A stretch of DNA of 34,234 nt from an uncultured Rhodospirillales bacterium (GTDB lineage: Bacteria; Pseudomonadota; Alphaproteobacteria; Acetobacterales; Acetobacteraceae). Within the stretch, counting starts at the first letter, position 1; each line of letters begins with the position of its first letter. The stretch covers positions 1 through 34,234 of the forward strand of contig CAIMWH010000328.1 in the NCBI GenBank assembly GCA_903845065.1. Reading direction: 5' to 3'. A program made the position numbers and the translations under genes. A model generated the notes under the pieces. It was not told the DNA's origin, did no database searches, and worked only from the letters and a program-made list of their open reading frames with translations. Shown here piece by piece: positions 1 through 31,340 of the stretch.

Positions 1-392
1 CGCATCCGCACCCGATGGCCGGCCGCCACATCGCCATGCAGATGCGCAACCACGCCCGGCCCGCAATCCAGCGCCACCATCCCGCTGCGCCACGGCGCCT
101 GCTGGCGAAAATACGGATCAGCGCTGATCCGCGTCGTCGTCGCCGCCAGCACCACGCCCCCCGCCGCCACATCCCGCCACGGCAAATCGGGCCCGAGGCA
201 CGCGCAACACACCTCGCGCGGCGGATACTGCGCCGCGCCACACGCCGCACACACCTGCAACGCGAACCGCCCCCGCGCCGCCGCCGCCGCCAACCCCAGC
301 GCCGCCCGGCTCCGCCCCCCCGGCGGCGCCAGCGGCGCGGATGGCACCGCCATCGGATCGGACGGCCGGCGCGGCGCCAATGGCTCCGTCAT
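1..392 (-). CDS. DUF35-type zinc-ribbon/OB-fold protein, C-terminus beyond window
   Basis: The first 130 codons of a minus-strand gene are visible, and the rest lies beyond the left edge. After a low-complexity Ala/Pro/Arg leader of about 45 residues comes a zinc-ribbon segment with two cysteine pairs (CAAC near residue 48, CCAC near residue 62), followed by a beta-rich start of an OB fold. That is the layout of DUF35 (YlxP/Zn-ribbon + OB-fold) proteins, which are known as partners of thiolase-fold enzymes and are thought to bind acyl-CoA or shape the active site. Its ATG overlaps the stop of the upstream thiolase-like gene by four bases (ATGA), so the two are probably translated together and form a complex. 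The long leader is unusual; an internal ATG at codon 14 is an alternative start. Family assignment is fairly sure; substrate is unknown. Confidence 0.8.
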   Translation of the reverse strand, partial: MTEPLAPRRPSDPMAVPSAPLAPPGGRSRAALGLAAAAARGRFALQVCAACGAAQYPPREVCCACLGPDLPWRDVAAGGVVLAATTTRISADPYFRQQAPWRSGMVALDCGPGVVAHLHGDVAAGHRVRM

Positions 393-1555
393 GACACGCC
401 CAGGATAGCGGCCCCGGAGCACAGCCCGCGGTCGTAGTTGATCATCCCGAACCCCGAAACCAGTGCCGTCCGCGCGCCCGCCACCTGCGCCCCCGGCGCC
501 GTCCCGGTAAGCTGCCGCATCGCCTCCACCAGCCCGAGATACCCTCCCGCCGCCCCCGCCTGCCCCACCGAAAGCTGCCCGCCCGACGTGTTGTGCGGAA
601 AATCCCCGGTGGTGGTCAGGTCATGCCCACGCACGAACGCCGGCCCCTCGCCCTTGGCGCAAAACCCGAAATCCTCGAACTGCATCATCACGATCACCGG
701 ATAGTCGTCATAGGTCTGCACCAGGTCGATCCCATCCGGCGACGTCCCCGCCATGGCATAGAGTTCGCCGCAATCCACCGCCCAGCCGCCGCGCAACTGG
801 ATCGGGTCCTCGGTGAACGCGTTATGCCGCTCGATAGTCCCCCTGATCTCCACCCCTGCCAACCCGAGAGACCGCGCCGTCTCGTCGCGCATCACCAGGA
901 ACGCATCCGCCCCCGCACACGGCATCACGCAGTCGAACAGCGCCACCGGATCGGAGATCATCCGCGCGCCCAGATACTGCTCCATCGTCAACGGCCGCTT
1001 CATCAACGCATGCGGGTTGGACAGCGCATTCTCCCGCTGCGAAATGCAGATGCGGCCGAAATCCTCCCGCGTCGCCCCATACGTCCGCATATACGCGTCC
1101 GTCAGCAGCGCGAAACTGCCGTTCGGCCCCGCCGCGCCATACGGATAAGTCGCATCCGCCGCGAACCGGCTGAACCCCGCCACCATGCGGCGAAACGAGT
1201 CCGGGCTGTTGGTGTCGCCGGCCACGCACGCCACGATATCCGCATCCCCCGCCTGCACCGCCCGCGCCGCGCGGCGCAGCGCCACCACCCCGGTGGCCCC
1301 GCCCATCGGGATATGATCGAGCCAGCGCGGCGAAAGCCCGAGATGCTGCGTCAGCCCCACCGCCGTATCCGCCCCGAGCGTAAAGCTCGACACGCACAAT
1401 CCATCGATATCCCGCGGCCGTATCCCCGCCCCACGCGCCACTTCGCGGATCGCGCTGCCGATCCACCAATGCGCCCCATGGATGGAATACCGCGCATACG
1501 GAATGGTCGTCGGCATCACCGCGACCACCCCCTCATAGCCGGCCCGGCGGCTCAC
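389..1555 (-). CDS. Thiolase-fold protein lacking canonical catalytic residues
   Basis: The 388-residue product is a thiolase-superfamily protein of the SCP-x/lipid-transfer-like branch. Visible landmarks are the IDGLCVSSFTL segment after the first helix, MGGATGVVALRRAARAVQ where the nucleophilic Cys of true thiolases sits, and NTSGGQLSVGQAGAAGG near the C-terminus. In that last motif the usual Gly-His-Pro catalytic His is replaced by Gln. The nucleophile position appears to be Ala/Thr, so Claisen condensation or cleavage by the normal mechanism is unlikely. Family members with DUF35 partners act as retro-aldolases, or have no known activity. I chose the GTG at 1555, whose TGA overlap with the upstream ligase stop is four bases (GTGA); a longer frame from 1729 would run deep into the ligase gene. 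A DUF35 gene follows directly. Confidence 0.85.
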   Translation of the reverse strand: MSRRAGYEGVVAVMPTTIPYARYSIHGAHWWIGSAIREVARGAGIRPRDIDGLCVSSFTLGADTAVGLTQHLGLSPRWLDHIPMGGATGVVALRRAARAVQAGDADIVACVAGDTNSPDSFRRMVAGFSRFAADATYPYGAAGPNGSFALLTDAYMRTYGATREDFGRICISQRENALSNPHALMKRPLTMEQYLGARMISDPVALFDCVMPCAGADAFLVMRDETARSLGLAGVEIRGTIERHNAFTEDPIQLRGGWAVDCGELYAMAGTSPDGIDLVQTYDDYPVIVMMQFEDFGFCAKGEGPAFVRGHDLTTTGDFPHNTSGGQLSVGQAGAAGGYLGLVEAMRQLTGTAPGAQVAGARTALVSGFGMINYDRGLCSGAAILGVS

Positions 1556-3153
1556 GCCGTGCGCTTCTTCATGGCGCGGGTATCGATGGTCGCCGGCGCC
1601 ACCTGCAACGCCAGGGCCAGGTCCTTCAAAGCCCCCCGGCTCACCTTGGTCGTCGCCGTCAACGGCAGCGCATCCACGAACGCCACATACCCAGGCGCCT
1701 TGTAGTACGCCAGCCGCGACAGGCACCACGCCACGATATCGGCCGCCACCGCCGCCGGATCAGAGGCCTTGGCATGCAGCACCACGCACGCCAGCACCTC
1801 ATCCCCGCGCAGGGCATCCGGCACCGCCGCCACCGCCACGGCCTGCACGAGGTCATGCTGCAACAGCACCCCCTCCACCTCCACCGCCGCGATGTTCTCG
1901 CCTGAGCGCCGGATCACATTCTTCTTGCGGTCGATGAACACCATGTCCCCGGCCGCGTTGCGGCTGACGATGTCCCCGGTATGAAACCACCCACCCTCCC
2001 ACGCCGCCGCCGTCGCCGCCGGGTCCTTCAAATACTCGGTGAAAAACCCGAACCGCGGATCGGCCCCCGCCCGCCGCACCAGCAACTCCCCGGGCTCATC
2101 CGGTGCCACCTCCGCCCCGTCATCGCGCACAATCCGCGCCTGCATGAACGGCTCCACCCGCCCGAAACAGCTCTGCCCGATCCGCCGCGGCTCATGCTGG
2201 GCCGAAATCACCGCCCCCGCCCCGGTTTCCGTCATCGCCCACGCATCGATCAGCGGAATCCCGAACCGCGCCTCCGCCTCGGCATGCAGCCGCCGATCGG
2301 GCCCCGGACAAAACGCGAATTTCACCTGATGCGCCCGCTCGGCCGCACTCACCGGCAGCTTCATCAAAATCGCCGGCATCACGCCGAGGCAATGCACAAT
2401 CGTCGCCCGCGCCCGCGCCACGCTGTCCCACCACGTCGAGGGATGAAACCGATCGAGCGGCACCAGGCAGCCACCCGCCATCACCATCCCCATCGTCGAG
2501 CAGGCCATCGCATTCATGTGAAAGAACGGCAGCGGCGTCAGCATACGCTCGGCCCCCGGCACCAGCGCGCACCGCCCGCCCATCCGCCCATACCAGCGCC
2601 CGCATTCGAGGAACCAGGTCTGCGAAACCACGCACCCCTTGGGCAGCCCGGTGGTGCCGGACGTATAGAGCAGCGCCGCCTCGGCCGCAGGATCATCCCC
2701 CGGCGCCCCGCCCGCAAACGGCGCCGCCGGCGGCACAACCTCCGGCCCGATCACCGGCAGCCCCGGCGCCGCCCGCCGCAAATCCCCCTGCCGGCTCTCG
2801 ATCGCCACCGCCAGCACCGCCTCGGAATGCGCCAGCAGATACTCCAACTCCGCCGCCCGCAAATCCGGGTTCACCGGCACCACCGAAGCCCCACACGCAT
2901 TCAGCGCGAACCAGTGCAGGAAAAACACCGGCCGGTTTTCCAGCAGCAGCGCCACCCGATGCCCGCGCCCGTACCCGGCCTCGCGATACCCCTCCGCGAA
3001 AACATCCACCATCGCGGCGGCGTCCTCATACGTCAGCACCCCCTCGCTCACCCCATAGGCGGCGGCGGTCTCGGGCAGGATGTCGAGAAACGGCTGCTTC
3101 GGCCAGGCCGCCGCCGCCGCGCGGAACGCGGCATGAACCGAGGAATAATCCAT
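1552..3153 (-). CDS. AMP-forming acyl-CoA ligase (ANL superfamily)
   Basis: A 533-residue adenylate-forming enzyme that should activate a carboxylic acid with ATP and then CoA in the cytoplasm. All core signatures are present: the P-loop-like YTSGTTGLPKG at residues 163-173, WAMTETG near 305-311, WFHTGD at 389-394, the hinge DRKKNVIRRSGENI at about 408-421, and the C-terminal lysine in TTKVSRG (Lys503). The length is typical for class I acyl-CoA synthetases. The sequence resembles the carnitine/crotonobetaine-CoA ligase and aromatic-acid ligase groups, but substrate cannot be deduced. The ATG at 3153 shares one base with the stop of the Rieske small-subunit gene (TGATG), so translation is probably coupled. 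A longer frame reaching 3381 would overlap the small subunit and is rejected. Its place in the operon suggests it activates the acid made by, or fed to, the oxygenase. Confidence 0.92.
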   Translation of the reverse strand: MDYSSVHAAFRAAAAAWPKQPFLDILPETAAAYGVSEGVLTYEDAAAMVDVFAEGYREAGYGRGHRVALLLENRPVFFLHWFALNACGASVVPVNPDLRAAELEYLLAHSEAVLAVAIESRQGDLRRAAPGLPVIGPEVVPPAAPFAGGAPGDDPAAEAALLYTSGTTGLPKGCVVSQTWFLECGRWYGRMGGRCALVPGAERMLTPLPFFHMNAMACSTMGMVMAGGCLVPLDRFHPSTWWDSVARARATIVHCLGVMPAILMKLPVSAAERAHQVKFAFCPGPDRRLHAEAEARFGIPLIDAWAMTETGAGAVISAQHEPRRIGQSCFGRVEPFMQARIVRDDGAEVAPDEPGELLVRRAGADPRFGFFTEYLKDPAATAAAWEGGWFHTGDIVSRNAAGDMVFIDRKKNVIRRSGENIAAVEVEGVLLQHDLVQAVAVAAVPDALRGDEVLACVVLHAKASDPAAVAADIVAWCLSRLAYYKAPGYVAFVDALPLTATTKVSRGALKDLALALQVAPATIDTRAMKKRTA

Positions 3154-3620
3154 CACATGAACAACTGGATGTTGCCGAAGGCGCTGTCGCAATTCACCAG
3201 GTCGATCCTCTTCAGCTTGATCCGCAACGCGCCATCCACCATCACCAGCGTATGCCGGGCCCACCCCGCATACAGCGTCTGCTCGTCCAGCCGCGTCTCC
3301 ACGTAGTGGAACGGCGCCCAGGTCCGCACCCCGTCCGCATCGCGTCCCTCCACCAGCGGCGCCCCCATCAAATGATGGCACCGGCTTTTCGGCTTCTGGC
3401 TGTAGGTCTTGGCGCCCTTCAACCGCTCGATGCGGATGCGCAGCAGGATCTTGTCGTCATAGAACAGCGAGTTGTGCAGGATCGGGTCGGTCTGCCCATA
3501 CTCCAGCGGCATCCAGTAGCGCCCGTCCTCGGTGAACAAATCGAGCCACTCGTCGAACCGCTGCTCGTCGATCAGGCGCGCCTCATGCAGCACGAAGGCC
3601 GCAACCTCTGAGTCGGTCAC
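3153..3620 (-). CDS. Rieske oxygenase small (beta) subunit
   Basis: A 155-residue SnoaL/NTF2-like protein of the ring-hydroxylating dioxygenase beta family. It opens with the typical helix (FVLHEARLIDEQRFDEWLDLF), continues with DGRYWMPLEY and SRCHHLMG, and ends with the LKRIDLVNCDSAFGNIQLFM tail seen in benzoate/anthranilate-type small subunits. It has a structural role, forming an alpha3beta3 hexamer with the large subunit encoded immediately upstream. The start is a GTG at 3620, four bases overlapping the large-subunit stop (GTGA). The length, about 155-165 residues in the family, supports this start over the frame beginning at 3752. No reductase or ferredoxin gene accompanies the pair in this window. 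Confidence 0.9.
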   Translation of the reverse strand: MTDSEVAAFVLHEARLIDEQRFDEWLDLFTEDGRYWMPLEYGQTDPILHNSLFYDDKILLRIRIERLKGAKTYSQKPKSRCHHLMGAPLVEGRDADGVRTWAPFHYVETRLDEQTLYAGWARHTLVMVDGALRIKLKRIDLVNCDSAFGNIQLFM

Positions 3621-4924
3621 GCCGTCGCCTCGCACATGAATTTCTTCCACGCGCGGAACTGGTTGCGCATCTGCCACTCCGTCGTCCCGTTCGTCACCGC
3701 CGTCCCCTGCCCCGCCTCGGCCGGATCGTAGAGCCGCTGCATGTTGATCCACGGATTGGCGTCCGCATGCAGCGCATCCTGCGCCCGCTCATACATCTCC
3801 AGGTCGTCATGCCCCACCGGCGAGGTGGGCGCATTGATCAGCCGCGAATACATCAGCGTCCGTTCCAGCAGCTTGTCGGGCGCACCCACCAGCCGGAACG
3901 TCCAGGACTCCACCATCGTCTTGTTCGCCGCCACCGGCTTGAACAACCGCAACGCCTGGATCGGCCCCTTCATTGTCATGTTGGGGAAATACGCCGTGTT
4001 GTGCCGGTTGGTATCGAGGATGGATTTTGCCCTGGTCTCCCCATACGCCGCCACCATCTGCTCGAAATAGCCGGGAACCGCCGAATAGTCCGAATGGATG
4101 GAGTGCGACACGCCGGTATGCCCGTGCCCATTCGGCCACACCCTTATGCCCATGCTCTCATAGAACTGGTACGACGACATGAACGGCGCATAGATCTCCA
4201 CCGCCGGATGCCGCGGCGTGCCCTCCGGCATGGTCTTCCACACATTCACCGCCGTGCCGGCCGAACTCTCATGCGCCACCATCGGGTGGCAGGTATCGGT
4301 GAGGTTCTCCATCAACATCTTGTAGTTGCAGTGATGGAGATAGCGCAGCACCCCGCCCGCCACCTCCAGCTTCCCCACCGGAGAGCGGTCCACCATGTTG
4401 TCCAGGCTCGAAAGACTGTCGCCGAAATAGTCCTCGAACGGTATCCCGCTCTTCGCCAGCCGCGCGAACACGAACTCCCGGTACACATGCACATTGCGCA
4501 CCGGCGTCATCCCCTGCGCCGCGTGCGAGCCCTGGAACCCGGTGTTCTCATACCCGCCCGGCAGCGGAATGGCCGCGATGGTGCCATCGAGCCGGAAACT
4601 CCACGCATGATACGGGCAGCGGAAAAACCGCCCTGCATTGCCGCACGCCTCATTGGCCACCCGCGTGCCCTTGTGCGGGCAGCGATTGATCAGCACCGCG
4701 ATCTCGCCGCTGCCCTGCCGCACCATCACCACCGGCGTGGTCCCCAGCGTGGTGGTGATGAAATCCCCCATCGCCGGAACCTGGCTGGCATGCCCGACGT
4801 ACACCCAGGCATTGCCGAACACGTGCTTCATCTCAAGCTCGAACACCTCGGGGTCGGTATACACATCCCGATGCACCTCGCTCTCGCGCACCAGCCCGCG
4901 CACCGCTTCGAGATCGCGCGCCAT
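3617..4924 (-). CDS. Rieske non-heme iron oxygenase large (alpha) subunit
   Basis: A 435-residue terminal oxygenase subunit. The Rieske [2Fe-2S] domain shows CPH at residues 82-84 and CPYH at 103-106. The catalytic domain carries ENLTDTCHPMVAH, giving the bridging Asp210 and iron ligands His213 and His218; the third ligand is probably an Asp in the GHDD stretch (about 373-374). Such enzymes add O2 to an aromatic ring or side chain using electrons from a separate reductase. The overall sequence is closest in style to the benzoate/anthranilate/indole-acetate group rather than naphthalene dioxygenases, but this is an impression from motifs only. The ATG at 4924 is preceded by a strong ribosome site (GGGAGG, 7 bases away) and lies 10 bases after the upstream stop. 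The longer frame to 5032 is not needed. Confidence 0.93.
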   Translation of the reverse strand: MARDLEAVRGLVRESEVHRDVYTDPEVFELEMKHVFGNAWVYVGHASQVPAMGDFITTTLGTTPVVMVRQGSGEIAVLINRCPHKGTRVANEACGNAGRFFRCPYHAWSFRLDGTIAAIPLPGGYENTGFQGSHAAQGMTPVRNVHVYREFVFARLAKSGIPFEDYFGDSLSSLDNMVDRSPVGKLEVAGGVLRYLHHCNYKMLMENLTDTCHPMVAHESSAGTAVNVWKTMPEGTPRHPAVEIYAPFMSSYQFYESMGIRVWPNGHGHTGVSHSIHSDYSAVPGYFEQMVAAYGETRAKSILDTNRHNTAYFPNMTMKGPIQALRLFKPVAANKTMVESWTFRLVGAPDKLLERTLMYSRLINAPTSPVGHDDLEMYERAQDALHADANPWINMQRLYDPAEAGQGTAVTNGTTEWQMRNQFRAWKKFMCEATA

Positions 4925-4934
4925 CGCCGCCTCC

Positions 4935-6440
4935 CTACAGGCTCGCCACGGTGCGCAACGCACCGTCGAGCATCTTGCCGTCCTCATCGGCCAGCGCCGC
5001 CTCGCGCAGCCGGCGGATCCAATCCGCCGCATCCGCCCGCCCCGCCACCAGCGCCGCGGCCCCGATCACCCGGTCGAACTTGCTCTGCCCGCGCGCATGG
5101 GTGTCCGAATACCCCTTCACCAACCGCCGGCACTTCAACAACTCCACCGCCAGCCGCGCATCCTGCGGCGCCGTGCGCGCGACCAGATCGAGCCACCCCT
5201 GCACATGCGCCATCTCCCGCTCATGGCGCAGCAACCGCCGCCGCCACGGCTTCAACCCGGCGACCACATACAATTGCAGAAACCCCCGCAGATGCGTCGT
5301 CCGCACCCGCCGCCCCCGCTCGAACAGCCGCTTCAGCAACCCCGTCATCATGGGCGAGCCCTCGATCGCCCGCCCCAGCCCCGCCGGCATCGTCGCGCAA
5401 ATCTCCGCGACCCGCGGATGCATGAACTCGGTGGTATCCACCACCTGGTCCGCCCGCGCCAAAACCTCGGAGCGCACCCGGGCGAACCGGCTGCCCCGCG
5501 TCTTGAGATCGGCCACCCGGATCACATCGTCATACGACAGCGCCACCGCCACCTGCCGCGCCGCCTCGACGGCCAGCGCCGCATCGATGCGCACCAGCGC
5601 GCCCACCCGATCGAGATACTCATGCGCCAGCGCGACGTCCTGGTAATCCACCATCCGCCGCAGCCCCGCCACCAGCATCTCCCGCGCCTCGGCCGGAAAT
5701 TCGCTGTCCACCCGCCGCAACGCCCGCGTCAGCTCCGCCTGCTCCCGCGCACTCCCGCCGGTCACCCGCGCCGCCACCGCCGCCACCTCCGGCTCCGGCC
5801 GGTTCGGCGCCTGCACGGTATCGAACCCCGAACCGAACGCCCGCAGGCTCGCCTCAACCCCCAGCCCGCTCGCCCGGATGGTCTCCTCGAAATCCCCCCG
5901 CGCGAACGGCAGCGCCCCGCTCCCCGCCAGCGCGCCAAACAGCGCCGAGGAAATCACGCTCCCGCTGCGCTCCGCCATCGCCTGCATATCGGCATGCACG
6001 AACCGCTGCGCCGCCGCCCCCGCCGTCCCCAGCACCGCGGCACTATCCGCCCGCCCATCCCCCGGCTTGGCCTTCTCCGTCACCGCGTAACTGCGATGGG
6101 ACGAGGCGATCAGCGTTGTCTTGTCCGGTGACACCAGCCCACGCTGGATCGCCCGGCCGGCTTCCATCAACTCCGAGGCGATCACCACATCCACATCGCC
6201 AGGCACCGGCATCAACGACAGCACCGGCCGCGAATTACGCTGCTCCGGCCGGATCAGCTCGACATAATAGATCGTCGCCCCGGTCCGCTGCGCCACGCCC
6301 GGCACGGAGGTGGTCTGCGCCACCCACCCGCCATGCTCCGCCATGGCGACAATCCAGTCCGCCAGCACCCCGCCGCCCTGCCCGCCCATCGCCATGATGG
6401 CAATGGTGATCGGCCGATCGACCCCCGCAACCTCCCCCAT
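4935..6440 (-). CDS. Indolepyruvate:ferredoxin oxidoreductase beta-type subunit with long C-terminal extension
   Basis: The 501-residue product starts with the 2-oxoacid:ferredoxin oxidoreductase gamma/beta fold: MAMGGQGGGVLADWI (about 16-30) and PGVAQRTGATIYYVE (about 47-61) are the hallmark motifs of IorB. That domain ends near residue 190. A further roughly 300 mostly helical residues follow, rich in Arg and Ala, matching the large C-terminal (DUF6537-like) region that some bacterial indolepyruvate oxidoreductases carry. With the alpha subunit it should oxidatively decarboxylate an aryl or branched 2-oxoacid to an acyl-CoA and reduce ferredoxin. The ATG at 6440 overlaps the alpha-subunit stop by one base (TGATG). 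The role of the C-terminal extension is not known to me. Confidence 0.88.
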   Translation of the reverse strand: MGEVAGVDRPITIAIMAMGGQGGGVLADWIVAMAEHGGWVAQTTSVPGVAQRTGATIYYVELIRPEQRNSRPVLSLMPVPGDVDVVIASELMEAGRAIQRGLVSPDKTTLIASSHRSYAVTEKAKPGDGRADSAAVLGTAGAAAQRFVHADMQAMAERSGSVISSALFGALAGSGALPFARGDFEETIRASGLGVEASLRAFGSGFDTVQAPNRPEPEVAAVAARVTGGSAREQAELTRALRRVDSEFPAEAREMLVAGLRRMVDYQDVALAHEYLDRVGALVRIDAALAVEAARQVAVALSYDDVIRVADLKTRGSRFARVRSEVLARADQVVDTTEFMHPRVAEICATMPAGLGRAIEGSPMMTGLLKRLFERGRRVRTTHLRGFLQLYVVAGLKPWRRRLLRHEREMAHVQGWLDLVARTAPQDARLAVELLKCRRLVKGYSDTHARGQSKFDRVIGAAALVAGRADAADWIRRLREAALADEDGKMLDGALRTVASL

Positions 6441-8596
6441 CACGCCAGCGCCAACCGGCCGCCATCGCGCCGCCGCTGCAACCAGCCGATCACCGCCCCC
6501 CGCACCCCGGCGACAAACCGGTCCCACCCCGTCGGGTTGTGCACGATATCAGCCCGATAGAATGACGGGCACAGCACCGCCGCCTCCGAAACCTCGCCGC
6601 AGTTGCCGCAGCCCACGCACGAATTATCAATCGCCGCCACCGGGTCCTCTTTCAAGGGATCGCCCGAATCCTTCACCGACAACGAAGGACAGCCGGACAA
6701 CCGGATGCACGCATGGTCCCCGGTGCAGATATCCTCATCCACCCCGAACCGCGGCTTCACCATCCGCACGCCGCGCTTCACCGCCGCATTGAACAACGGC
6801 CGCTCCCGCCGCTGCCGGTTCAGCATGCACTCGGACGACGCGATGATGATCTTCGGCCCCGCCTCCCGCGTGGTCAGCGCGTCCCGCAGCATGTCGCGCA
6901 GCTTGCCAACCGAATACGTATGGTCGATCCGCCGCACCCACTTGGCGCCCACGCCGCGCACCGCATCCTCGATCGGATGCTGCGTCGAGCGCGTGTCATT
7001 ATCCGCCCGCGAGGACAAGATATCCTGCCCCCCGGTCGCCGCCGAATAATGGTTGTCCACCACCACCAGCAGCCCGTCATGCTTGTTGAACACGGCGTTG
7101 CCCACGCCGTTCAGCAGCCCGTTGTGCCAGAACCCGCCATCCCCCATCACCGAGATGGACCGCTTGCCCCCCTCCCGCCGCCCCTGGAACGCCGACGCGG
7201 AGGACGCCCCCAGCCCATACCCCATGGTGGTGGCGCCGATATTGAACGGCGGATTGATCGCGAACAAATGGCAGCCGATATCGCCCGCCACGTGATGCAG
7301 CCCCAACTCCTGCTGCACCAGCGCCATCGCCGAGAAAATCGGCCGCTCCGGACACCCCGTGCAGAATGAAGGCGGCCGCGGCGGCACCACCGGCGCCAAC
7401 GCCTTCACCGTCTCGCTCGCCAGCAACGGCCGCGGATCGGGCGCCGGCGTCATCTCCGCCAGCAAAGCCGGAAACGCATCCGCGATGAACTTCCGAATGC
7501 CATCGATCAGCACCAGCGCGGTATATTCCCCCGCCATCGGCAACGCGCCCTTGCCATGAATGCGCGTCTGCACATCCGCCCGCCGCAGCACCGTATTCAG
7601 CGCCTGCTCGATGAACTCGGGCTGCCCCTCCTCCACCACCAGAATTGCCTGCTTGCCCACGCAGAACGCAACCAGGTCCTCATCCACCAGCGGATACGTC
7701 ACGTTCAGCACATGCAGCGGCACCCGCGTGCTGCCCCACACATCCGCCAGCCCGAGCAACTTCAGCGCCCGCATCACCCCGTTGTACATCCCACCCTGCA
7801 GGATAATGCCGATCTCGGAAATATCGCCCGGCATCGTCTCGTTCAGCCCGCGCTCGCGAATGAACCGGATCGCCGCCGGCAACCGCTGCGCGATCTTCTC
7901 CTGCTCATGCATGAATGACGCCGGCGGCAGCACGATCCGCCCGGTATCGCGCACCGGATTGTCCAGCGCCTCGCCCAGCGTGAACGCGGGCTTGCGATTG
8001 TCCTTGGCGATGAAACTGCCATGCACATGGCACGCCCGGATGCGCACCTCCAGCATCACCGGCGTATTGCTCGCCTCCGACAACTCGAAGGACTGCTCGG
8101 TCAGGCTGACAATGCTCTCCAAATTCGGCCGCGGGTCCACCAGCCAAATCTGGGACTTCATGGCAAACGCATGCGTCCGCTCCTGCATGATCGAGGACCC
8201 CTCGCCGTAATCCTCCCCGATCACGATCACCGCCCCGCCCATCACCCCGCCCGATGCCAGGTTGGACAGCGCATCGCACGCCACATTGGTCCCGGCGGTC
8301 GATTTCCACGTCACCGCGCCGCGGATCGGATACATCACCGAGGCCGCCAGCGTGGACGCCGCCGCCGCCTCCGACGCGCTGCTCTCGAAATGCACCCCAA
8401 GATCGCCCAGGATACCCTGCGCATCGGCCAGCACATCCATCAGGTGCGAAATCGGCGCCCCCTGGTAGCCCGCCACATACCCTACGCCCGACTGCAACAG
8501 CGCCTTGGTGACCGCCAGAATCCCCTCGCCGCGAAACACCTCGCCGGCGCTGAGCTTCAGGTCCTGCACCTCGCGCGCAAAAGATCGCTCAGCCAT
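6440..8596 (-). CDS. Indolepyruvate:ferredoxin oxidoreductase alpha-type subunit (TPP, Fe-S)
   Basis: A 718-residue thiamine-diphosphate enzyme. The N-terminal pyrimidine-binding half has GYQGAPISHLMD (43-54) and ESSASEAAAA (71-80). The pyrophosphate half contains FCTGCPER (411-418) and the TPP/Mg motif beginning GDGGFWHNG at 485, with VVDNHYSAATGGQ after it. A C-terminal ferredoxin domain keeps CVGCGNC (660-666) and Cys676. The first cluster motif is irregular, with Cys624, Cys630 and Cys636. The enzyme converts a 2-oxoacid plus CoA to acyl-CoA, CO2 and reduced ferredoxin. As the first gene of the minus-strand operon it is coupled to the beta subunit. The start at 8596 follows a G-rich ribosome site; the upstream in-frame start at 8617 would add seven atypical residues. 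Aryl-pyruvate or aryl-glyoxylate substrates are plausible but unproven. Confidence 0.92.
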   Translation of the reverse strand: MAERSFAREVQDLKLSAGEVFRGEGILAVTKALLQSGVGYVAGYQGAPISHLMDVLADAQGILGDLGVHFESSASEAAAASTLAASVMYPIRGAVTWKSTAGTNVACDALSNLASGGVMGGAVIVIGEDYGEGSSIMQERTHAFAMKSQIWLVDPRPNLESIVSLTEQSFELSEASNTPVMLEVRIRACHVHGSFIAKDNRKPAFTLGEALDNPVRDTGRIVLPPASFMHEQEKIAQRLPAAIRFIRERGLNETMPGDISEIGIILQGGMYNGVMRALKLLGLADVWGSTRVPLHVLNVTYPLVDEDLVAFCVGKQAILVVEEGQPEFIEQALNTVLRRADVQTRIHGKGALPMAGEYTALVLIDGIRKFIADAFPALLAEMTPAPDPRPLLASETVKALAPVVPPRPPSFCTGCPERPIFSAMALVQQELGLHHVAGDIGCHLFAINPPFNIGATTMGYGLGASSASAFQGRREGGKRSISVMGDGGFWHNGLLNGVGNAVFNKHDGLLVVVDNHYSAATGGQDILSSRADNDTRSTQHPIEDAVRGVGAKWVRRIDHTYSVGKLRDMLRDALTTREAGPKIIIASSECMLNRQRRERPLFNAAVKRGVRMVKPRFGVDEDICTGDHACIRLSGCPSLSVKDSGDPLKEDPVAAIDNSCVGCGNCGEVSEAAVLCPSFYRADIVHNPTGWDRFVAGVRGAVIGWLQRRRDGGRLALA

Positions 8597-8706
8597 GCGA
8601 ACCCCCCAATGACCCACGCCACATGGCGCCGGGTCGGAATAGTTGAAGCCTGAAGCAATTTTCTGTCAAACCAACTTTCGGCCCCCTCCCCCGCCGGGGC
8701 AAGGAA

Positions 8707-8774
8707 GATTCACCACGAGATGGCGAGAAGCGAACCTCTTCCTTCTCCCTGCCTCTGTGCCTCTGTGGTGAATC
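8707..8774. repeat. 68-bp inverted repeat with CACAGAGG-type core between divergent operons
   Basis: Two perfect 10-base arms, GATTCACCAC at 8707-8716 and its complement at 8765-8774, enclose a segment reading GCCTCTGTGCCTCTGTGG on its right side. Short sequences built on CCACAGAGGCACAGAGG are familiar intergenic repeats in many unrelated bacteria. The element sits between the divergent oxidoreductase operon and the ABC importer, within the 279-base gap (8597-8875), which otherwise shows only a C-run/G-run hairpin near 8682-8700 and no gene. I cannot tell whether it is a mobile remnant or a functional hairpin. Confidence 0.6.
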
Positions 8775-8875
8775 AGCTTTCTTGCCACGCCCGCCGATCC
8801 GCCCGATTTTCCCAGTTCCCCCCGCGATGTTTCAACCCTAAAGTATCCCCTCAAATACGGGCATAGGGGGCTATG

Positions 8876-10390
8876 ATGGTCGCATTCACGCGCCGCAACC
8901 TGCTGCAAACCGCCACGATCGGCACACTCATGGGCGCGCTACCGGCCCATGCCGCCGATGACGGCGTCACCATCGGCTGGCCCAGTGACGTCACCTCCTG
9001 GGACCCCAACCAGCGCTTCACGCCGGACGCGCAGTCCATCTTCAAAGCCGTGTTCGACCAGCCGCTCGACCAGGACGCCAAGCTCAAGCTCGTCCCCCAC
9101 CTCATCACCAAATGGGACATGGCGCCCGACGCCCGCAGCCTGGCCCTCGAATTCCGCGATGACGTGCTGTTCCATGACGGCTCGAAAATGACCGCGGCGG
9201 ACTTCCGCTACACCTTCTTCGAACGCATCAAGGCCGGCCACAAGGTCGACATCGCGCAGTCCATGCGCAAAGTCACCGATATCGAAGTGCTCTCCCCCAC
9301 CAAGGCCGTCATGCACTTTGACAGCCCGGCCCCCACCGTGCCCGTCTGGCTCGCCTTCCTCGGCAGCTTCATCGTGCCCAAGGCCTACATGGAAAAAGTC
9401 AGCCCCGAAGCCTTCGCCCTCAAGCCCATCGGCACCGGCCCCTACAAACTCGTCGAACACCAGATGAACGCCCGCATCGTGCTCGAACGCAACGATGCCT
9501 ACTGGGGGCCCAAACCCGCCCTCAAGCGGGTCACTATCGAAATCATCAAGGACCCTTCGGCCCGCGTTGCCGCCGTCCAATCCGGCCAGGTCGACATCAC
9601 CACCTCCGTCCCGGTCCGCGAAGTCACCCGCCTCAAGGCCCAGCCCGGCCTCGTCGCCGACCTCACGCCCGTCACCAAGGTAATCATCCTCCAGGTCCGC
9701 AACGACGAAGGCTTCGCCGACAGCAACATCCGCCTCGCCGCCCATCACGCCATCGACAAAAAAGCCCTCAGCCAGGCCTTCTACGCCGGCGCCGCCGTCC
9801 CCGTGTCCGTCCTCGGCGTGCCCGGCAGCCCGGGCTATCTCGAAGACTTCACCTTCGGCTTCGATCCCGAATTGTCCAAGCAACTCCTCGCCAAATCCGG
9901 CTTCAGCCTGGACAAGCCCGCCAAAATCCGCATGGCCAGCACCAACGGCCAATTCCCGTCCGACTACGATATCGCCCGCGCCATCGTGCAGATGTGGAAG
10001 AAAGTCGGCATCGAAGCCGAACTCGAAGTCATCGAATACGCCAAATACTTCGAACTCAACCGCGGTAACAAACTCCCCGAAGCCACCCTCTATACCTTCG
10101 ACAACGCCACCGGTGATCCGGAAATCTACACCGGATACCTGATGAACCCGAAACTGCCCTTCTCGCCCTGGAAAGACATGACCCTGGGCCAGAAAGTCAT
10201 TGATCAGTTCAACGTCGCCGACGAAAAAGCCCGCATCGCCGGCTGGCGCGCCCTCAACAAAGAAGCCACCGAAACCGGCGCCGCCATGCCCCTGCTGCAA
10301 AGCGTAATGACCGTGGTGCGCAAAAAATCCCTCGAACTCACCCCCTACGGCAACGGCTGGATCCTGCCCCAGACGATGCGCTGGGGCTGA
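8876..10390 (+). CDS. ABC transporter substrate-binding protein, family 5 (peptide/nickel type)
   Basis: A 504-residue periplasmic binding protein of the DppA/OppA/NikA family. The N-terminus has a twin-arginine-like signal (TRRNLLQ, then a hydrophobic stretch) with a likely cut after ALPAHA. The mature part shows the family hallmarks: LVPHLITKWDMAPDARSLAL, FHDGSKMTAADFRYTF, GTGPYKLVEH and ERNDAYWGPKP. It should capture a small molecule in the periplasm and pass it to the permeases encoded downstream. Of two adjacent ATGs (8873 and 8876) I prefer the second, because the AGGGGG ribosome site at 8865-8870 is then five bases away. The ligand is unknown; the family binds peptides, but also many non-peptide compounds, and the divergent aromatic-acid operon suggests a catabolic substrate. 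Confidence 0.92.
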   Translation: MVAFTRRNLLQTATIGTLMGALPAHAADDGVTIGWPSDVTSWDPNQRFTPDAQSIFKAVFDQPLDQDAKLKLVPHLITKWDMAPDARSLALEFRDDVLFHDGSKMTAADFRYTFFERIKAGHKVDIAQSMRKVTDIEVLSPTKAVMHFDSPAPTVPVWLAFLGSFIVPKAYMEKVSPEAFALKPIGTGPYKLVEHQMNARIVLERNDAYWGPKPALKRVTIEIIKDPSARVAAVQSGQVDITTSVPVREVTRLKAQPGLVADLTPVTKVIILQVRNDEGFADSNIRLAAHHAIDKKALSQAFYAGAAVPVSVLGVPGSPGYLEDFTFGFDPELSKQLLAKSGFSLDKPAKIRMASTNGQFPSDYDIARAIVQMWKKVGIEAELEVIEYAKYFELNRGNKLPEATLYTFDNATGDPEIYTGYLMNPKLPFSPWKDMTLGQKVIDQFNVADEKARIAGWRALNKEATETGAAMPLLQSVMTVVRKKSLELTPYGNGWILPQTMRWG

Positions 10391-10484: not shown

Positions 10485-10556
10485 CTCGGAGGCTGAGAGG
10501 GGGCGCCAACTGCGTGGTTGCAACGGCAGAGTAGGCGCCCCCTCTCAGTCTCCGAG
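10485..10556. repeat. Long inverted repeat, 23-bp arms
   Basis: Arms at 10485-10507 and 10534-10556 are complementary at 22 of 23 bases, separated by a 26-base loop. The perfect run in each arm includes GAGAGGGGGCGCC and its complement. No open frame inside looks like a gene. The structure could be a small non-autonomous mobile element, a REP-like repeat, or a strong mRNA-stabilising stem between the binding protein and permease genes. Confidence 0.7.
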
Positions 10557-10581
10557 ATTCTTACTTCAACGGATGCGGGTC

Positions 10582-10621
10582 TGGGGGATCATCCCCCAAC
10601 GGGTCCAGGGCCGAGCCCTGG
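10582..10621. repeat. Palindromes just upstream of the permease start
   Basis: TGGGGGAT/ATCCCCCA forms a perfect palindrome around one central base (10582-10598), and CCAGGGC/GCCCTGG with loop CGA follows (10605-10621). The second resembles the hairpin at 10442-10460, indicating the same repeat family. The permease ATG is 38 bases further on, with no clear ribosome site in between. Confidence 0.55.
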
Positions 10622-10658
10622 CCTTGCTTACCTTCACGCCCACCCGGCACCATCCCCA

Positions 10659-11669
10659 ATGATCCTCCTGGGCACGCTCGGGCGGCGGTTGTTGGCGGCG
10701 GTGCCGATATTGTTTGTGGTGTCGTTGTTGTTGTTTGTGGCGTTGCGGGTGTTGCCGGTGGACCCGGCGGCGATGTCGATGCCGCCGAACGCCACGCGCG
10801 ACGAGATCGAGGCGGCGCGGCGGGACATGGGGCTCGATCGGCCGTTGGTGGAGCAGTACGGGGTGTGGTTCGACCACGCGGTTCGCGGCGATTTCGGCCG
10901 CTCGATTCATTTGCGCCGCCCGGCGGCCGGCCTGGTCGGCGAGACGTTACCGAGCACCATTGAGTTGGCAACGGCGGCGATGCTGGTGGCGAGCGTGCTG
11001 GGGCTGGCGGGCGGGCTGCTGCTGTTTGCGTTGCGCGATCGGCCGGCCGAGACGATTGCCGAGACCGGCACCACGCTGCTGATGTCGGTGCCGGAGTTCT
11101 TGTGGGCGCTGCTGTTCATCTTCGTCTTCGGCGTGGCGTTGCAGGCGATGCCGTTCACCGGGAGGCTTGATCCGGGGCTCCAGCGCCCGATGGTGACCGG
11201 GTTTCTGCTGCTCGACGCGGTGCTGACCTTGCGGTTCGATGTCCTCCGGAGCGCTTTGGTTCACTTGGTCCTCCCCGCCATCGCCCTTGGCCTTGCCTTC
11301 GCACCCCCCATCATGCGCGTCCTCCGCGCCTCCCTGCTGGACACCTACCACGAGGACTACATCCGCCAGGCCCGCCTCCGCGGCATCTCCGAAACCCGCA
11401 TCCTCCTGCGGCACGCCCTGAAAAACGCGATCCTCCCCACCCTTACCCTGATGGGCGTCCAGTTCGGCTTCCTCTTCGGCGGCTCGCTCCTGGTGGAGGT
11501 CATCTACTCCTACCCCGGTATGGGCAACCTGATGGTGGACGCCGTGCGCAACGCCGACCTGCCCATCATCCAGTTGGTCGGCCTGACCTATTGCGTCGTG
11601 GTGCTGACCATCAACTCCCTGGTGGACGGCCTCTATCTCGTCCTCAACCCCCGCCTGCGCGCCCGCTGA
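10659..11669 (+). CDS. ABC transporter permease, DppB/OppB family
   Basis: A 336-residue inner-membrane protein. It begins with the standard LGRRLLAAVPILFVVSLLLF helix and ends in LVDGLYLVLNPRLRAR, as in DppB-type permeases; about six membrane helices are visible. The cytoplasmic coupling loop appears as SLLDTYHEDYIRQARLRG at about residues 218-235. It should form the channel with the next gene product. The start at 10659 fits the family N-terminus although no good ribosome site precedes it; the frame from 10518 runs through repeats and is rejected. Codon choice changes abruptly inside the gene near 11240: before it, third positions are mostly G (GCG, TTG, GTG, CTG), after it mostly C, like the neighbours. 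This suggests that the 5' part was replaced by recombination. Confidence 0.92.
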   Translation: MILLGTLGRRLLAAVPILFVVSLLLFVALRVLPVDPAAMSMPPNATRDEIEAARRDMGLDRPLVEQYGVWFDHAVRGDFGRSIHLRRPAAGLVGETLPSTIELATAAMLVASVLGLAGGLLLFALRDRPAETIAETGTTLLMSVPEFLWALLFIFVFGVALQAMPFTGRLDPGLQRPMVTGFLLLDAVLTLRFDVLRSALVHLVLPAIALGLAFAPPIMRVLRASLLDTYHEDYIRQARLRGISETRILLRHALKNAILPTLTLMGVQFGFLFGGSLLVEVIYSYPGMGNLMVDAVRNADLPIIQLVGLTYCVVVLTINSLVDGLYLVLNPRLRAR

Positions 11670-12514
11670 TGCCCCGCTGGCTCCGTTCCGCCCGCGTCAT
11701 CGCCGGCCTCCTCCTCGCCGGCCTGGTCCTCACCTGCGCGCTGGCCGCCCCCTGGCTCGCCCCGCACGACCCTGACGAGCAGGACCTCATCGCCATGCTG
11801 CTCCCCGCGGTGTGGCAAGCCGGCGGTGACCACGCCCACCTCCTCGGCACTGACGGCCTCGGCCGCGACGTGCTCTCCCGCCTGCTCTACGGCGCCCGCG
11901 TCGCGATGACGGTCGCTCTCACCGCCGCACTTGGCGCCGCGGTCATGGGCGCCACCCTCGCCTACATCGCCGGCTACCTCGGCGGCCGCGTCGACTGGCT
12001 GATCGGCCGCGCCATCGACATCTGGATGTCCTTCCCCCCAGTTGTCCTCTCCCTCATCTTGATGACCGGCCTCGGCACCGGCACCCGCAACGTCATCCTC
12101 GCCATCGTCCTGGTCGACTGGACCCGCTTCTGCCGCGTCCTGCGCGCCGAAGTCATCGTCACCGCCCGCCGCGACTACGTCACCGCCGCCCGCCTGGTCG
12201 GCTTCTCCCATCTGCGCACCGTGATCCGCGAAATCGTCCCTGCCACCATCCCCCTGCTGGTCACCCTGCTCACGCTCGAAATGGGCATCGCCGTGGTGGT
12301 CGAGGCCATCCTCTCCTTCGTCGGCCTCGGGGTGAAATCGAGCCAGATCGCCTGGGGCCAGATGATCGCCGACGGGCGGGACGCCGTGTACCAGGCCCCC
12401 TGGAACCTGCTCGCTCCGGTGCTCGCCATTTTCGTCACCGTCGCCGGCTTCAACCTCCTCGGTGACGGCCTGCGCCGCAGCCTCGATGTCCGCATGGTCG
12501 AGGGCCGCGAATGA
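11669..12514 (+). CDS. ABC transporter permease, DppC/OppC family
   Basis: A 281-residue inner-membrane partner of the preceding permease. The N-terminal helix (VIAGLLLAGLVLTCALAAPWLAP) precedes a periplasmic HDPDEQD loop and HLLGTDGLGRDVLSRLLYGAR, the diagnostic DppC motif. The coupling helix region reads ARRDYVTAARLVGFSH, and SFVGLGVKSSQIAWGQMI near the C-terminus is also typical. The ATG shares one base with the upstream stop (TGATG), so the two permeases are probably made together in equal amounts. It ends overlapping the ATPase gene start by four bases. Confidence 0.93.
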   Translation: MPRWLRSARVIAGLLLAGLVLTCALAAPWLAPHDPDEQDLIAMLLPAVWQAGGDHAHLLGTDGLGRDVLSRLLYGARVAMTVALTAALGAAVMGATLAYIAGYLGGRVDWLIGRAIDIWMSFPPVVLSLILMTGLGTGTRNVILAIVLVDWTRFCRVLRAEVIVTARRDYVTAARLVGFSHLRTVIREIVPATIPLLVTLLTLEMGIAVVVEAILSFVGLGVKSSQIAWGQMIADGRDAVYQAPWNLLAPVLAIFVTVAGFNLLGDGLRRSLDVRMVEGRE

Positions 12515-14283
12515 CACTCCTCATCGCCCGCCGCCTCAGCGTCGCCACCGCCGACGGCGTGCCAGTCCTGCGCGGCCTCGATCTCTCGCTCGCCCCCGGC
12601 AAGGTCCTCGGCCTGGTCGGCGAGTCGGGTGCCGGCAAATCCATGATCGGCCGCGCCATCGCCCAACTCATGCCCACCGGCTTCCAGGTCAGCGGCGGCA
12701 CCCTGCATTTTGACGGGCGAGACCTCGTCCGCATGCCCCCCGCCGCCCGCCGCTCCTTGCTCGGCCGTGACATCGCCTTCATCCCCCAGGAACCCCTCAC
12801 CGCCCTCAACCCGGTGCTCACCATCGGCGCCCAGATGGACGAACACTTCGCCCATCTCGGTGTCGTCAAACGCGAGGAGCGCCTCGCCCGCGCCATTCTG
12901 GCCCTCGAAGCTGTCCACCTCGCTGACGCGCCCGACCTCCTCGCCCGCTACCCCCACCAACTCTCCGGCGGCATGTGCCAGCGCGTCCTCATCGCCATGG
13001 CCTTCGCCAGCCGCCCCCGCCTGGTCATCGCCGACGAACCCACCACCGCCCTCGATGTCACCATCCAGGCCCGCATCGTCACCCTGATGGCCGAACTCCA
13101 GAAGCGCGACGGCACCGCGGTACTCTTCATCACGCATGACCTGCGCCTCGCCGGCCGCATCTGCGACGACATCGCCGTGCTCTACGGCGGCAGCATCGTC
13201 GAGGAAGGCCCGGCCCGCCAGGTCCTGAGCCAGCCCCAACACCCCTACACACGCTGCCTGCAACTCGCCAACCCCGCCCTCAGCGGCCCCCGCCGCGCGC
13301 TCTACGCCCTGCCCGAGCAAATGCCCGGCCTGCGCGCCCTCGCCACCCTCTCCGGCTGCCGCTTCGCCCCCCGCTGCCCCCTCGCCGGCGCCGAATGCCG
13401 CGAAACCGACCCACCGCTCGCCGGCGAAACCCAGCGCGCCGCCTGCCTGCAACCCTACCTCACCCCCGGCATCACCACCGAAACCGCCCCCCACGTCGTC
13501 ACCGCCCGCGCCGAAACCGCCGCATTGGTCAACGTCCAGGGCGTCTCGAAAACCTACCAAACCGGCACCCTGTTCCGCCGCCGCGCCACACTTGCGGTCA
13601 AGCCGGTCGATTTCCGCATCGCCCCCGGCGAATTCCTCGCCGTGGTCGGCGAAAGCGGCAGCGGCAAATCCACCCTCGGCCGCCTGCTGATGGGCCTCGA
13701 ACGCCCCACCACCGGCGCCATCCGCCTCGCCGGCCAGGATGTCGCCGCCGGAGGCGAAGCCGCCCGCCGCCACCGCCTGAAAACGGCGCAAATGGTCTTC
13801 CAGGACCCCCAATCCGCCCTCAACCCCCGCCGCCGCGTCGCCGATATCGTCACCCAGGCCCTCGAAGCCGCCGGCGTCGATCGCGCCACTCGCCTGCGCC
13901 GCGCCACCGAACTCCTCGCCGAAATGGGCCTCGGCGCCGAACTCGCCGCCCGCACTCCCAGCCAGCTTTCCGGCGGCCAGCGCCAACGCGTCAACATCGC
14001 CCGCGCCCTCTGCACCCTCCCCCGCCTCCTCGTCGCCGACGAAATCGTCTCGGGCCTGGATGTCTCCGTGCAGGCCCAGCTCCTCGCCTTGCTGCTCCGC
14101 CTGCGCGAACAACACGAATTCGCCATGCTGTTCATTTCGCACGACCTTTCCGTCGTGCGTCACCTCTGCGACCGCGTCCTGGTGATGTATCGCGGCGAAA
14201 TCGTCGAACATGGGCCCACGGAAGTGGTGTTCACCACCCCACGCCATGAATATACCCGCGCCTTGCTGGAGGCGGCGGCCTAG
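12511..14283 (+). CDS. Dipeptide-type ABC transporter ATPase, two ATP-binding domains fused (DppD-DppF)
   Basis: This 590-residue protein joins two nucleotide-binding domains. Domain one has Walker A GESGAGKS (37-44), LSGGMCQR (151-158) and Walker B LVIADE (171-176). It is followed by the peptide-transporter C-terminal cysteine motif (Cys283, Cys289, Cys296, Cys312), which can hold an Fe-S cluster in this family. Domain two has GESGSGKS (380-387), LSGGQRQR (486-493) and LLVADE (506-511). It ends soon after the second domain without a second cysteine motif. It drives import by the permease pair. The ATG overlaps the permease stop by four bases (ATGA). Its TAG stop is interlocked with that of the convergent glycosyltransferase gene in a shared CTAG. 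Confidence 0.94.
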   Translation: MTLLIARRLSVATADGVPVLRGLDLSLAPGKVLGLVGESGAGKSMIGRAIAQLMPTGFQVSGGTLHFDGRDLVRMPPAARRSLLGRDIAFIPQEPLTALNPVLTIGAQMDEHFAHLGVVKREERLARAILALEAVHLADAPDLLARYPHQLSGGMCQRVLIAMAFASRPRLVIADEPTTALDVTIQARIVTLMAELQKRDGTAVLFITHDLRLAGRICDDIAVLYGGSIVEEGPARQVLSQPQHPYTRCLQLANPALSGPRRALYALPEQMPGLRALATLSGCRFAPRCPLAGAECRETDPPLAGETQRAACLQPYLTPGITTETAPHVVTARAETAALVNVQGVSKTYQTGTLFRRRATLAVKPVDFRIAPGEFLAVVGESGSGKSTLGRLLMGLERPTTGAIRLAGQDVAAGGEAARRHRLKTAQMVFQDPQSALNPRRRVADIVTQALEAAGVDRATRLRRATELLAEMGLGAELAARTPSQLSGGQRQRVNIARALCTLPRLLVADEIVSGLDVSVQAQLLALLLRLREQHEFAMLFISHDLSVVRHLCDRVLVMYRGEIVEHGPTEVVFTTPRHEYTRALLEAAA

Positions 14284-19505: not shown

Positions 19506-19512
19506 CCTTGCT

Positions 19513-21354: not shown

Positions 21355-21409
21355 GGCACCAGCCTCTCCTTGCCCGCGCGTGCGACGCTTCGGCGTTCCA
21401 TCAACCCTC

Positions 21410-22891: not shown

Positions 22892-22905
22892 TTTCGTGTT
22901 CCCCT

Positions 22906-25173: not shown

Positions 25174-25585
25174 CCGATCGGCCAACACCTATCGACGCCC
25201 AAGTCATCGACACCCAACCCGCCGACGCCACTTGCCGCCGACGCGTCCTGTTCATCGTTCCATCCCGGACAAACGCCCTGAACAGCGGCCCGGAAACCGG
25301 GCTGCACGGGCTTATACAGCGACTGTCTCGCACACCCAAGTACGACAGACGCTTCTACATATAGCATATGCGTGAAGCAAAAATTATGAAAAGCCGGACA
25401 GCTTCAGTTCGACATCGTTCCACACCCCATGGCGCACCAAATGATTGCGCCCCCCGGCCGTGCGTGGCATGCACCCCGCATCGGCCGCTGCGGGCCCGGC
25501 AACGAAACGCCCCTCAGCGCGCGCCCGAAAGCCTGCACGTCAGCCTGCACGTCAGCCTGCAAGAAAGCGTGAGAGTCCCGCCGCC
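25174..25585. promoter_or_regulatory. Divergent intergenic region between exporter and peptidoglycan-binding gene
   Basis: About 410 bases without a credible gene. An AT-rich patch at 25356-25392, unusual for this DNA, contains CATAT/ATATG around AGC at 25358-25370, which on the minus strand gives a TATATG -10-like hexamer for the exporter operon. I could not fit a convincing -35 box. The rest is ordinary GC-rich sequence plus a 12-base tandem repeat near the right end. Short open frames here (for example 25368-25589) have no protein-like features. Confidence 0.3.
25531..25566. repeat. 12-base tandem repeat, about three units
   Basis: GCCTGCACGTCA occurs twice in succession (25531-25554) and a third, diverged unit begins GCCTGCA at 25555. 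The tract ends about 20 bases before the start codon of the peptidoglycan-binding protein, so a change in copy number could alter its 5' leader. Confidence 0.7.
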
Positions 25586-26372: not shown

Positions 26373-26390
26373 CATAAGAATATCTTTATG
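26373..26390. promoter_or_regulatory. Palindromic operator candidate for the ArsR-type regulator
   Basis: CATAAGAATATCTTTATG is an imperfect palindrome (seven of nine base pairs) in an AT-rich island between the divergent genes. ArsR-family regulators of methionine/SAM metabolism (SahR-like) are known to bind ATAAAGATATCTTTAT-type sites, and this site lies directly at the start of an ArsR-methyltransferase/metH operon. Autoregulation is therefore likely. The site contains the first possible ATG (26388), which argues that translation begins at the next one. Confidence 0.6.
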
Positions 26391-26402
26391 CGATGGCAAG
26401 GC

Positions 26403-30871: not shown

Positions 30872-30882
30872 GCCACAAGCAA

Positions 30883-31124: not shown

Positions 31125-31193
31125 CTGCTGCCCCTTTCGAGCGATTTCGTCCCCACCGCGCCGCATCGGGACGGGGACGTGACAGAACCGCAC

Positions 31194-31222: not shown

Positions 31223-31255
31223 CCCGCCTTCACGGTCGCGGCCGGGTTGTCGCAA

Positions 31256-31340
<85 letters not shown>

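Follow-up and report, generated by a model that had tools for sequence, protein, structure and literature searches.

The closest described counterpart of the locus presented here is the iad locus of Variovorax paradoxus CL14 (PMC9613470, PMC10374108, PMC12633357), which belongs to a pathway that enables root bacteria to eliminate auxin and to protect the growth of roots (PMC9613470). According to the openly available passages of the papers cited in this text, to which our statements about them are limited, iadA and iadB are exclusive markers of iad-like loci (PMC9613470), and iadDE are minimally required for degradation of indole-3-acetate (IAA) in the characterised system. The iadC reductase also belongs to that system, and neither it nor an IadR-type MarR beside iadA serves there as a marker for classification. 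The anaerobic iaa pathway of Aromatoleum likewise leads from IAA to 2-aminobenzoyl-CoA (PMC9613470), through genes described as highly divergent, and the labels iadA and iadB have also been used for another cluster, iadHABICDEFG (PMC8383072). We analyzed a stretch of 34,234 nucleotides (the window) from an uncultured Rhodospirillales bacterium, which is the entire contig C328 of a 5.9 Mb, 380-contig genome (G000) that is 96% complete. Judged by its sequence, the minus-strand operon at the left end of the window (Table 1) is an iad-type operon for aerobic IAA breakdown, of a known type but without the usual electron-supplying enzyme, a reading to which we give a probability of roughly 0.78. As a kind of operon it is ordinary; the variant is new and its details are informative. 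The operon encodes an oxygenase; to our knowledge the anaerobic iaa pathway of Aromatoleum has none.

The identification starts from the Rieske oxygenase. The closest solved structures to IadD are 7yls/8h2t and 9o71 (575-578 bits), the next solved alpha subunit reaching 153 bits, and IadE scores 154 bits against the solved beta subunit of the same set. IadD is 55% identical overall to 7yls, which we take as Variovorax IadD because the residue numbers given in PMC10374108 land on the right residues of its chain. All 14 cluster, iron and IAA-pocket residues named in that paper are identical in the window's IadD; 13 of the 14 are invariant among 86 IadD sequences at 59% identity or more, and nine more distant homologues have five pocket positions changed. 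A tree of 96 IadD-like proteins places the window in a well supported clade of 12 sequences, mostly titled Rhodospirillales or Acetobacteraceae. This nests in a clade of 86, and it is to the latter that Variovorax IadD together with a second Rhodoferax copy is sister. Two loci with an IadD 94% identical to 7yls have the order A-B-C-D-E-F-G-H-I-J followed by solute-binding proteins, which matches the published gene names, and the IadG and IadI motifs of Variovorax-type loci are the same as those of our operon. Both marker genes, iadA and iadB, are present here, as are iadDE with the IAA-pocket residues and iadFGHIJ in order. The comparison of gene order with characterised indole-acetate clusters that had been proposed for this DNA was made, and the order matches Variovorax-type iad loci. 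Our operon differs from that of V. paradoxus CL14 in having no iadC (nor was an orthologue found in the genome), in that no MarR gene adjoins iadA, in that an SBP_bac_5 transporter replaces the solute-binding proteins of branched-chain type, and in a motif common to genes of 2-aminobenzoyl-CoA type. The gene set recurs far beyond chance in many of 80 named loci, the best 80 of 442, with for example iadG in 57 and iadA in 57; these loci were mapped by homology with 95 sequences and a lower score threshold for small genes. Relatives of iadD, iadE and iadJ also occur in four genomes of genus g68 of the class (L027-L030, iadD 60-63%), where iadA, B, F, G, H and I are absent from the 17-20 kb stretches examined. 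Rhodoferax and Variovorax-type loci have a further iadD-iadE pair downstream of iadJ (L083:17486-18800; L133:4200-5953; L134:2594-4350), at 48-50% to the window's iadD.

The initial annotation described seven tightly spaced open reading frames (ORFs) on the minus strand, and the ORF list agrees with its order and strand. The sequence also bears out five stop/start overlaps of 1-4 bases and a single gap: A/B and E/F (both TGATG) overlap by 1 base, D/E (GTGA), F/G (GTGA) and G/H (ATGA) by 4, and B/D are 10 bases apart. The claim of a seven-gene operon stands for the window only, the operon having nine genes in all with its seventh cut by the contig end; we regard that gene as truncated because the window is a complete contig. 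The domain matches behind the family calls hold, except that the "thiolase" is without the thiolase nucleophile and the DUF35 gene is half of a cut fusion. IadA has a C domain of thiamine pyrophosphate (TPP) enzymes and an IOR-alpha-like match below the NCBIfam cut-off, and IadD has a Rieske domain and a match to ring-hydroxylating alpha subunits, whose catalytic domain lies slightly below the Pfam cut-off; IadE matches the ring-hydroxylating beta subunits. With an intact relative of IadH (405 aa) as query, the left end of the window matched its residues 3-130 at 79% identity and the right end of contig C153 its residues 133-404 at 78%. After the SDR half of iadH, C153 continues in the direction of the operon with iadI and iadJ, which are 90% and 76% identical to the genes of the relative. 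The two contigs share no end overlap, so that we infer their join from the protein continuity of IadH; the full operon would then run iadA-B-D-E-F-G-H-I-J across C328 and C153.

The following pathway may be proposed, its direct basis being homologies, conserved residues and motif sites. IadDE would oxygenate IAA at C2-C3 with an electron donor other than IadC, the SDR IadJ would oxidise the hydrated product to dioxindole-3-acetate (DOAA), and IadF would form DOAA-CoA; we hold these three steps to be very probable. IadG and the DUF35 part of IadH would probably convert this tertiary beta-hydroxyacyl-CoA to isatin and acetyl-CoA in a retro-aldol reaction without thiolysis, and IadI, as an isatin hydrolase, would almost certainly yield isatinate (2-aminophenylglyoxylate). 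Least secure, and only somewhat favoured by us, is the sixth step, in which IadAB would oxidatively decarboxylate isatinate to 2-aminobenzoyl-CoA and CO2. It is likely that an enzyme of the 2-aminobenzoyl-CoA monooxygenase/reductase type, encoded on another contig, would continue from there, with free anthranilate fed in by an anthranilate-CoA-ligase-like enzyme. The first two steps, the proposed third and the metabolite formulas come from published Variovorax work (a preprint), and the enzyme roles in the fourth and sixth steps, the choice of substrate in the seventh and the regulator are our own proposals. An indole-3-acetate route through an aryl-glyoxylate had been named as an example by the initial annotation, and with isatinate in that place it is well supported by the homology of IadDE, the isatin hydrolase and the gene order.

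For the hydrolase, IadI of a relative matches isatin hydrolase A with 388 bits, and all 54 full-length copies, including the one on C153, have the metal motif HxG[T/A]HxDxPxH, WxW, and GLQC (53) or GLAS (1). This is in accordance with the isatin-hydrolase signature of PMC6117287, a metal site with GLQC/GLAS, and with the fuller motif HxG[T/A]HxDxPxH, WxW/FxW and GLQC/GLAS. Compared with the isatin hydrolases of Labrenzia aggregata and Ralstonia solanacearum, with which it shares that homology and those motifs, nothing notable differs, and IadI sits in an IAA operon. In Variovorax, C10H9NO4 (DOAA) accumulates most without iadF and C8H7NO2 without iadI, and C8H7NO3 and C7H7NO accumulate in strains overexpressing iadC-K2 (PMC12633357), a region which, as named, does not include iadAB. 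By our own matching of formulas C8H7NO2 would be dioxindole, C8H7NO3 isatinate and C7H7NO 2-aminobenzaldehyde; C8H7NO3 formed from isatin has been identified as isatinate (PMC8383072). The published formulas fit the proposed steps.

A 2025 preprint describes IadG as a ketothiolase and IadI as perhaps a broad amidase, and the annotation in PMC12633357 favours a true thiolase, which would take off the acetyl unit by thiolysis. The thiolase fold is indeed present and the fold scores are near those of thiolases, while the best PDB match by both sequence and fold is the Sal-Shy(DUF35) aldolase 9myr, a DUF35-partnered retro-aldolase. Z values are 42.8 for 9myr, 41.4 for 4u4e, 40.8 for 7yvy and 40.4 for 6ok1, that is, 1.4-2.4 below 9myr for the next folds (model pLDDT 81, low near residues 326-333); fold scores alone are too close, and it is the residues that tell aldolase from thiolase. 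The position of the nucleophilic Cys of thiolases is occupied by Gly in 61 of 61 copies of IadG, and the Tyr of YDDY and two Gln are kept in all 61, the first D of YDDY varying in one copy. Moreover, DOAA-CoA has no 3-keto group, which counts against a thiolase. The same Gly, Tyr and two Gln occur in CtSal, a DUF35-bound retro-aldolase in which, according to its authors, the Gly bars thiolysis (PMC12329534). We therefore consider thiolysis by IadG very unlikely and prefer the retro-aldol reaction. What speaks against this preference is the second catalytic position, which is Asp in 61/61 copies where CtSal has Cys304, and Gln in 61/61 where TcLtp2 has Tyr344 (a position that is Gln in CtSal too). 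Because of this difference we propose that IadG acts like the Sal and Ltp2 aldolases and do not class it with them. With the steroid side-chain aldolases Sal-Shy(DUF35) and Ltp2-ChsH2(DUF35) it shares the thiolase fold, the lack of a nucleophilic Cys, the catalytic Tyr of a YD motif and the DUF35 partner, whereas their motif is YDCY or YDHF, their DUF35 is fused to a MaoC hydratase and not to an SDR, and the substrate of IadG is predicted to be small and indolic. In relatives IadH is mostly a DUF35-SDR fusion of about 414 aa, and at least 49 of the 50 full-length copies keep the four Cys of its zinc ribbon (residue counts here include only copies aligned over most of their length and without stops). 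The SDR half is not invariably part of IadH, since four Alcaligenaceae loci (L093, L105, L113, L115) carry the DUF35 part alone between iadG and iadJ. Throughout the open-access passages searched, with most subscription papers lying outside that search, IadG is nowhere called an aldolase and IadAB is nowhere given a reaction.

The onward route was approached through a gene matching NF006101, a fusion of a flavin monooxygenase with old yellow enzyme (OYE), an architecture which we take to be that of 2-aminobenzoyl-CoA monooxygenase/reductase. Of the 80 named loci, 17 have such a gene no more than about 10 kb from iad. Whole-genome counts were made for 50 of these loci, the omitted ones being mostly short contigs and near-duplicates from Bradyrhizobium; a match above the cut-off was found in 49 of the 50 genomes, the fiftieth having two partial matches on two contigs, as compared with 50 of 289 genomes of the class, a set that includes our own genome and some iad carriers, which reduces the contrast. 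Our genome has the gene on contig C249 (1131 bits against the curated cut-off of 1078, over the full fusion) beside SDR, MarR and RidA genes, and the same arrangement adjoins iad in L041 and L055. It shares the fusion with enzymes of the 2-aminobenzoyl-CoA monooxygenase/reductase and salicylyl-CoA 5-hydroxylase type, and its substrate is predicted. Genes resembling gentisate/5-aminosalicylate 1,2-dioxygenase and genes of the FAH family adjoin iad in 17 of the 80 named loci, namely 14 of Bradyrhizobium (L068, L070, L071, L073-L076, L078, L081, L082, L084-L086, L090) and L093, L105 and L113, suggesting ring cleavage after 5-hydroxylation. Aromatoleum evansii KB740 (L077), the model organism for anaerobic IAA degradation, also has an aerobic-type iad operon, and its contig holds TRAP transporter genes and an NF006101 gene as well.

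A motif resembling an operator ties these genes together. It was first seen in an alignment of the intergenic region between iadA and the transporter in window-type loci, and two matrices built on iadA-side sites, one from six sites including the window's and one from five relatives only, point, within 20 kb of C249, to the space between the SDR and NF006101 genes. The C249 locus (L127) was chosen before the motif was known, and L140 and L141 for their motif matches. A whole-genome pattern written from three of our genome's own sites, in which the ligase and TRAP sites played no part, has three exact matches in the 5.9 Mb, before iadA, the divergent transporter gene and the NF006101 gene. Sites with one mismatch number two, before the anthranilate-CoA-ligase-like gene and a TRAP DctP binding protein; the reversed pattern gave no match in the same genome, and shuffles of the window and L127 gave none. 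The ligase site starts 36 bases upstream of the gene, whose best PDB match is the anthranilate-CoA ligase 4wv3 (306 bits). With one position widened, the pattern has 38 matches in six relatives (the genomes of L038, L040, L041, L044, L046 and L055; L039, L042, L043, L045 and L063 were left out) and the control 5. For 17 of the 38, a target gene (iadA, the transporter gene, NF006101/SDR, the ligase or DctP) is no more than about 100 bases away; two of these 17 are second-strand readings of one palindromic site. A further match is found 660 bases upstream of iadA, close to the end of a contig. Ten matches are exact, eight at target genes and two before a luciferase-like monooxygenase gene.

One regulator plausibly co-controls iad, NF006101, the ligase and the uptake genes, the candidate being the MarR beside the NF006101 gene. 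Several results weigh against so simple a regulon: the remaining 20 of the 38 matches lie elsewhere; the motif is not universal, being found by pattern at iadA in 4/6 relatives, NF006101 in 5/6, the ligase in 4/6 and DctP in 1/6; and the C249 MarR has only a weak match to the IadR-type structure 7kfo (30 bits; best 3boq, 78 bits). The idea that this MarR is a clear IadR orthologue was rejected on that score. No iadA-side site was found in L040, and that of L038 was found by the matrix alone. An IadR-type MarR is not found beside iadA here, where the neighbour is the transporter; a TetR-type gene adjoins iadJ. The luciferase-like flavin monooxygenase genes with the motif, found in three relatives (L173:1234-2376, L177:3004-4176 and L167:1544-2638), one of which has a one-mismatch site, are SfnG/RutA-like, below those cut-offs, and a [2Fe-2S] protein adjoins in two of the loci (L173 by Pfam, L167 by reading), so that a second N-heterocycle route in the same regulon is possible.

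The transporter raises the question of the substrate. Seven of the 80 named loci have a gene for an SBP_bac_5 protein near iad, and a dipeptide-type transporter in window-type loci, here with a copy of the motif, would agree with a natural substrate related to IAA, such as a substituted IAA or an IAA conjugate taken up by it. The IAA-pocket residues are all kept in IadD, which makes this quite improbable, and IAA itself remains our preferred substrate. Between iadA and the transporter, about 70 bases (8707-8776) are mostly gaps in alignment to seven relatives and have inverted ends, GATTCACCAC ... GTGGTGAATC.

The role of IadAB depends on how these data are combined. Literature passages and NCBIfam name it only as "indolepyruvate oxidoreductase"-like, and in Variovorax iadC-K2 fully restores anthranilate formation (PMC12633357), so that IadAB is not needed there for anthranilate. 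Furthermore, the anthranilate-CoA-ligase-like gene, which carries the common motif, could yield 2-aminobenzoyl-CoA without IadAB. These points tell against our sixth step and would agree with the pathway as published, from IAA to free anthranilate, the co-controlled ligase then making 2-aminobenzoyl-CoA and IadAB oxidising for example indolepyruvate or a side product. Against this stand the homologue of IadA present in 50 of 50 iad genomes by whole-genome search, iadA or iadB local to iadD in 61 of the 80 named loci, and the accumulation of a compound with the formula of isatinate on iadC-K2 overexpression. We think the published route possible, if rather unlikely, and retain the decarboxylation of isatinate by IadAB. 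The CoA end point foreseen by the initial annotation gains indirect support from the motif common to 2-aminobenzoyl-CoA-type genes; IadAB as the maker of the aryl-CoA we still infer. Mutual substitution of iadAB and another CoA ligase (lig13), suggested by local gene lists, was rejected on the whole-genome presence of IadA.

The last point concerns the supply of electrons to IadDE. A match to IadC at E 1e-40 or better was found in 36 of the 50 iad genomes and in none of the other 14, which include all six window-type genomes tested. The search of our own genome gave no IadC orthologue (best match 33%, 66 bits), and at 96% completeness a missed gene is possible. Because no IadC was found, IadDE must take electrons from another donor. 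A family near several iadC-less loci (f39) was considered as the IadDE reductase and rejected, being an alpha/beta hydrolase. Conceivably, in iadC-less operons the electrons that IadAB would obtain from isatinate oxidation power IadDE, through the ferredoxin-like domain or a ferredoxin. If true, the last and first enzymes of the operon would be linked one-to-one in an internal electron loop, IadDE needing two electrons per IAA. The loop is favoured by the 14 of 50 genomes without an IadC match, by the presence of IadA in all 50 and by the 10 bases separating iadB from iadD here. All 14 iadC-less genomes have iadA close to iadD (inside the fetched locus in 12, about 12 kb off on a contig of equal length in L099 and L101), whereas in at least three iadC-bearing genomes (L047, L049, L052) it is on a different contig. 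Counting against the loop, iadAB accompanies iadC in most loci, and the Cys pattern of IadA, with 13 conserved Cys columns across 56 copies, is the same in loci with and without iadC. On balance we consider the loop unlikely.

Table 1. Features of the operon and of the adjoining transporter (window positions, except for the row on contig C153)
Feature	Position	Strand	Description and basis
iadA	6440..8596	-	IOR-alpha-like TPP subunit; ferredoxin-like Cys cluster at the C-terminus; proposed subunit of an isatinate oxidoreductase
iadB	4935..6440	-	POR domain + DUF6537; beta partner of IadA; NF006179, 706 bits
iadD	3617..4924	-	Rieske oxygenase large subunit; 575 bits to 7yls
iadE	3153..3620	-	Rieske oxygenase small subunit, GTG start; 154 bits to 7yls_A
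iadF	1552..3153	-	AMP-forming CoA ligase (AMP-binding); proposed dioxindole-3-acetate-CoA ligase
iadG	389..1555	-	Thiolase-fold protein, GTG start; active site retro-aldolase-like; thiolase-like C domain
iadH N-terminal part	1..392	-	DUF35: zf-ChsH2 + OB domain; cut by contig end
iadH SDR half	contig C153, L120:8079-8912	operon strand	Homology to relative's IadH
SBP_bac_5 solute-binding protein (dppA-like), divergent transporter	8873..10390	+	Near iad in 7 of 80 named loci
dppB-like and dppC-like permeases + fused dppDF-like ATPase	10518..14283	+	dppC-like by Pfam; others by ORF reading
Operator-like motif before iadA	8639..8655	-	Directly after TTGACA box
Second operator-like motif copy, before divergent transporter gene	8827..8843	-	Motif search

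In the rest of the window, reading of the ORFs gives a long glycosyltransferase-like ORF, an ORF with Sel1-like repeats and a HlyD/HlyB-like type I secretion pair at 16626-25188, and, at 26388-32713, an ArsR-methyltransferase-like ORF overlapping a MetH-like one; these are followed by tRNA-Leu at 31256-31340 and a trigger-factor-like ORF.

Taken together, the sequences of this operon and its relatives suggest functions for several so far unexplained iad enzymes. IadA and IadB are without an assigned role in the literature passages available, and there is now a testable chemical role for IadAB, IadG and IadI. The common motif and the near-universal co-occurrence in the genomes checked tie iad to 2-aminobenzoyl-CoA metabolism, and the comparison reveals a group of iad operons that encode a Rieske oxygenase but no known reductase for it.

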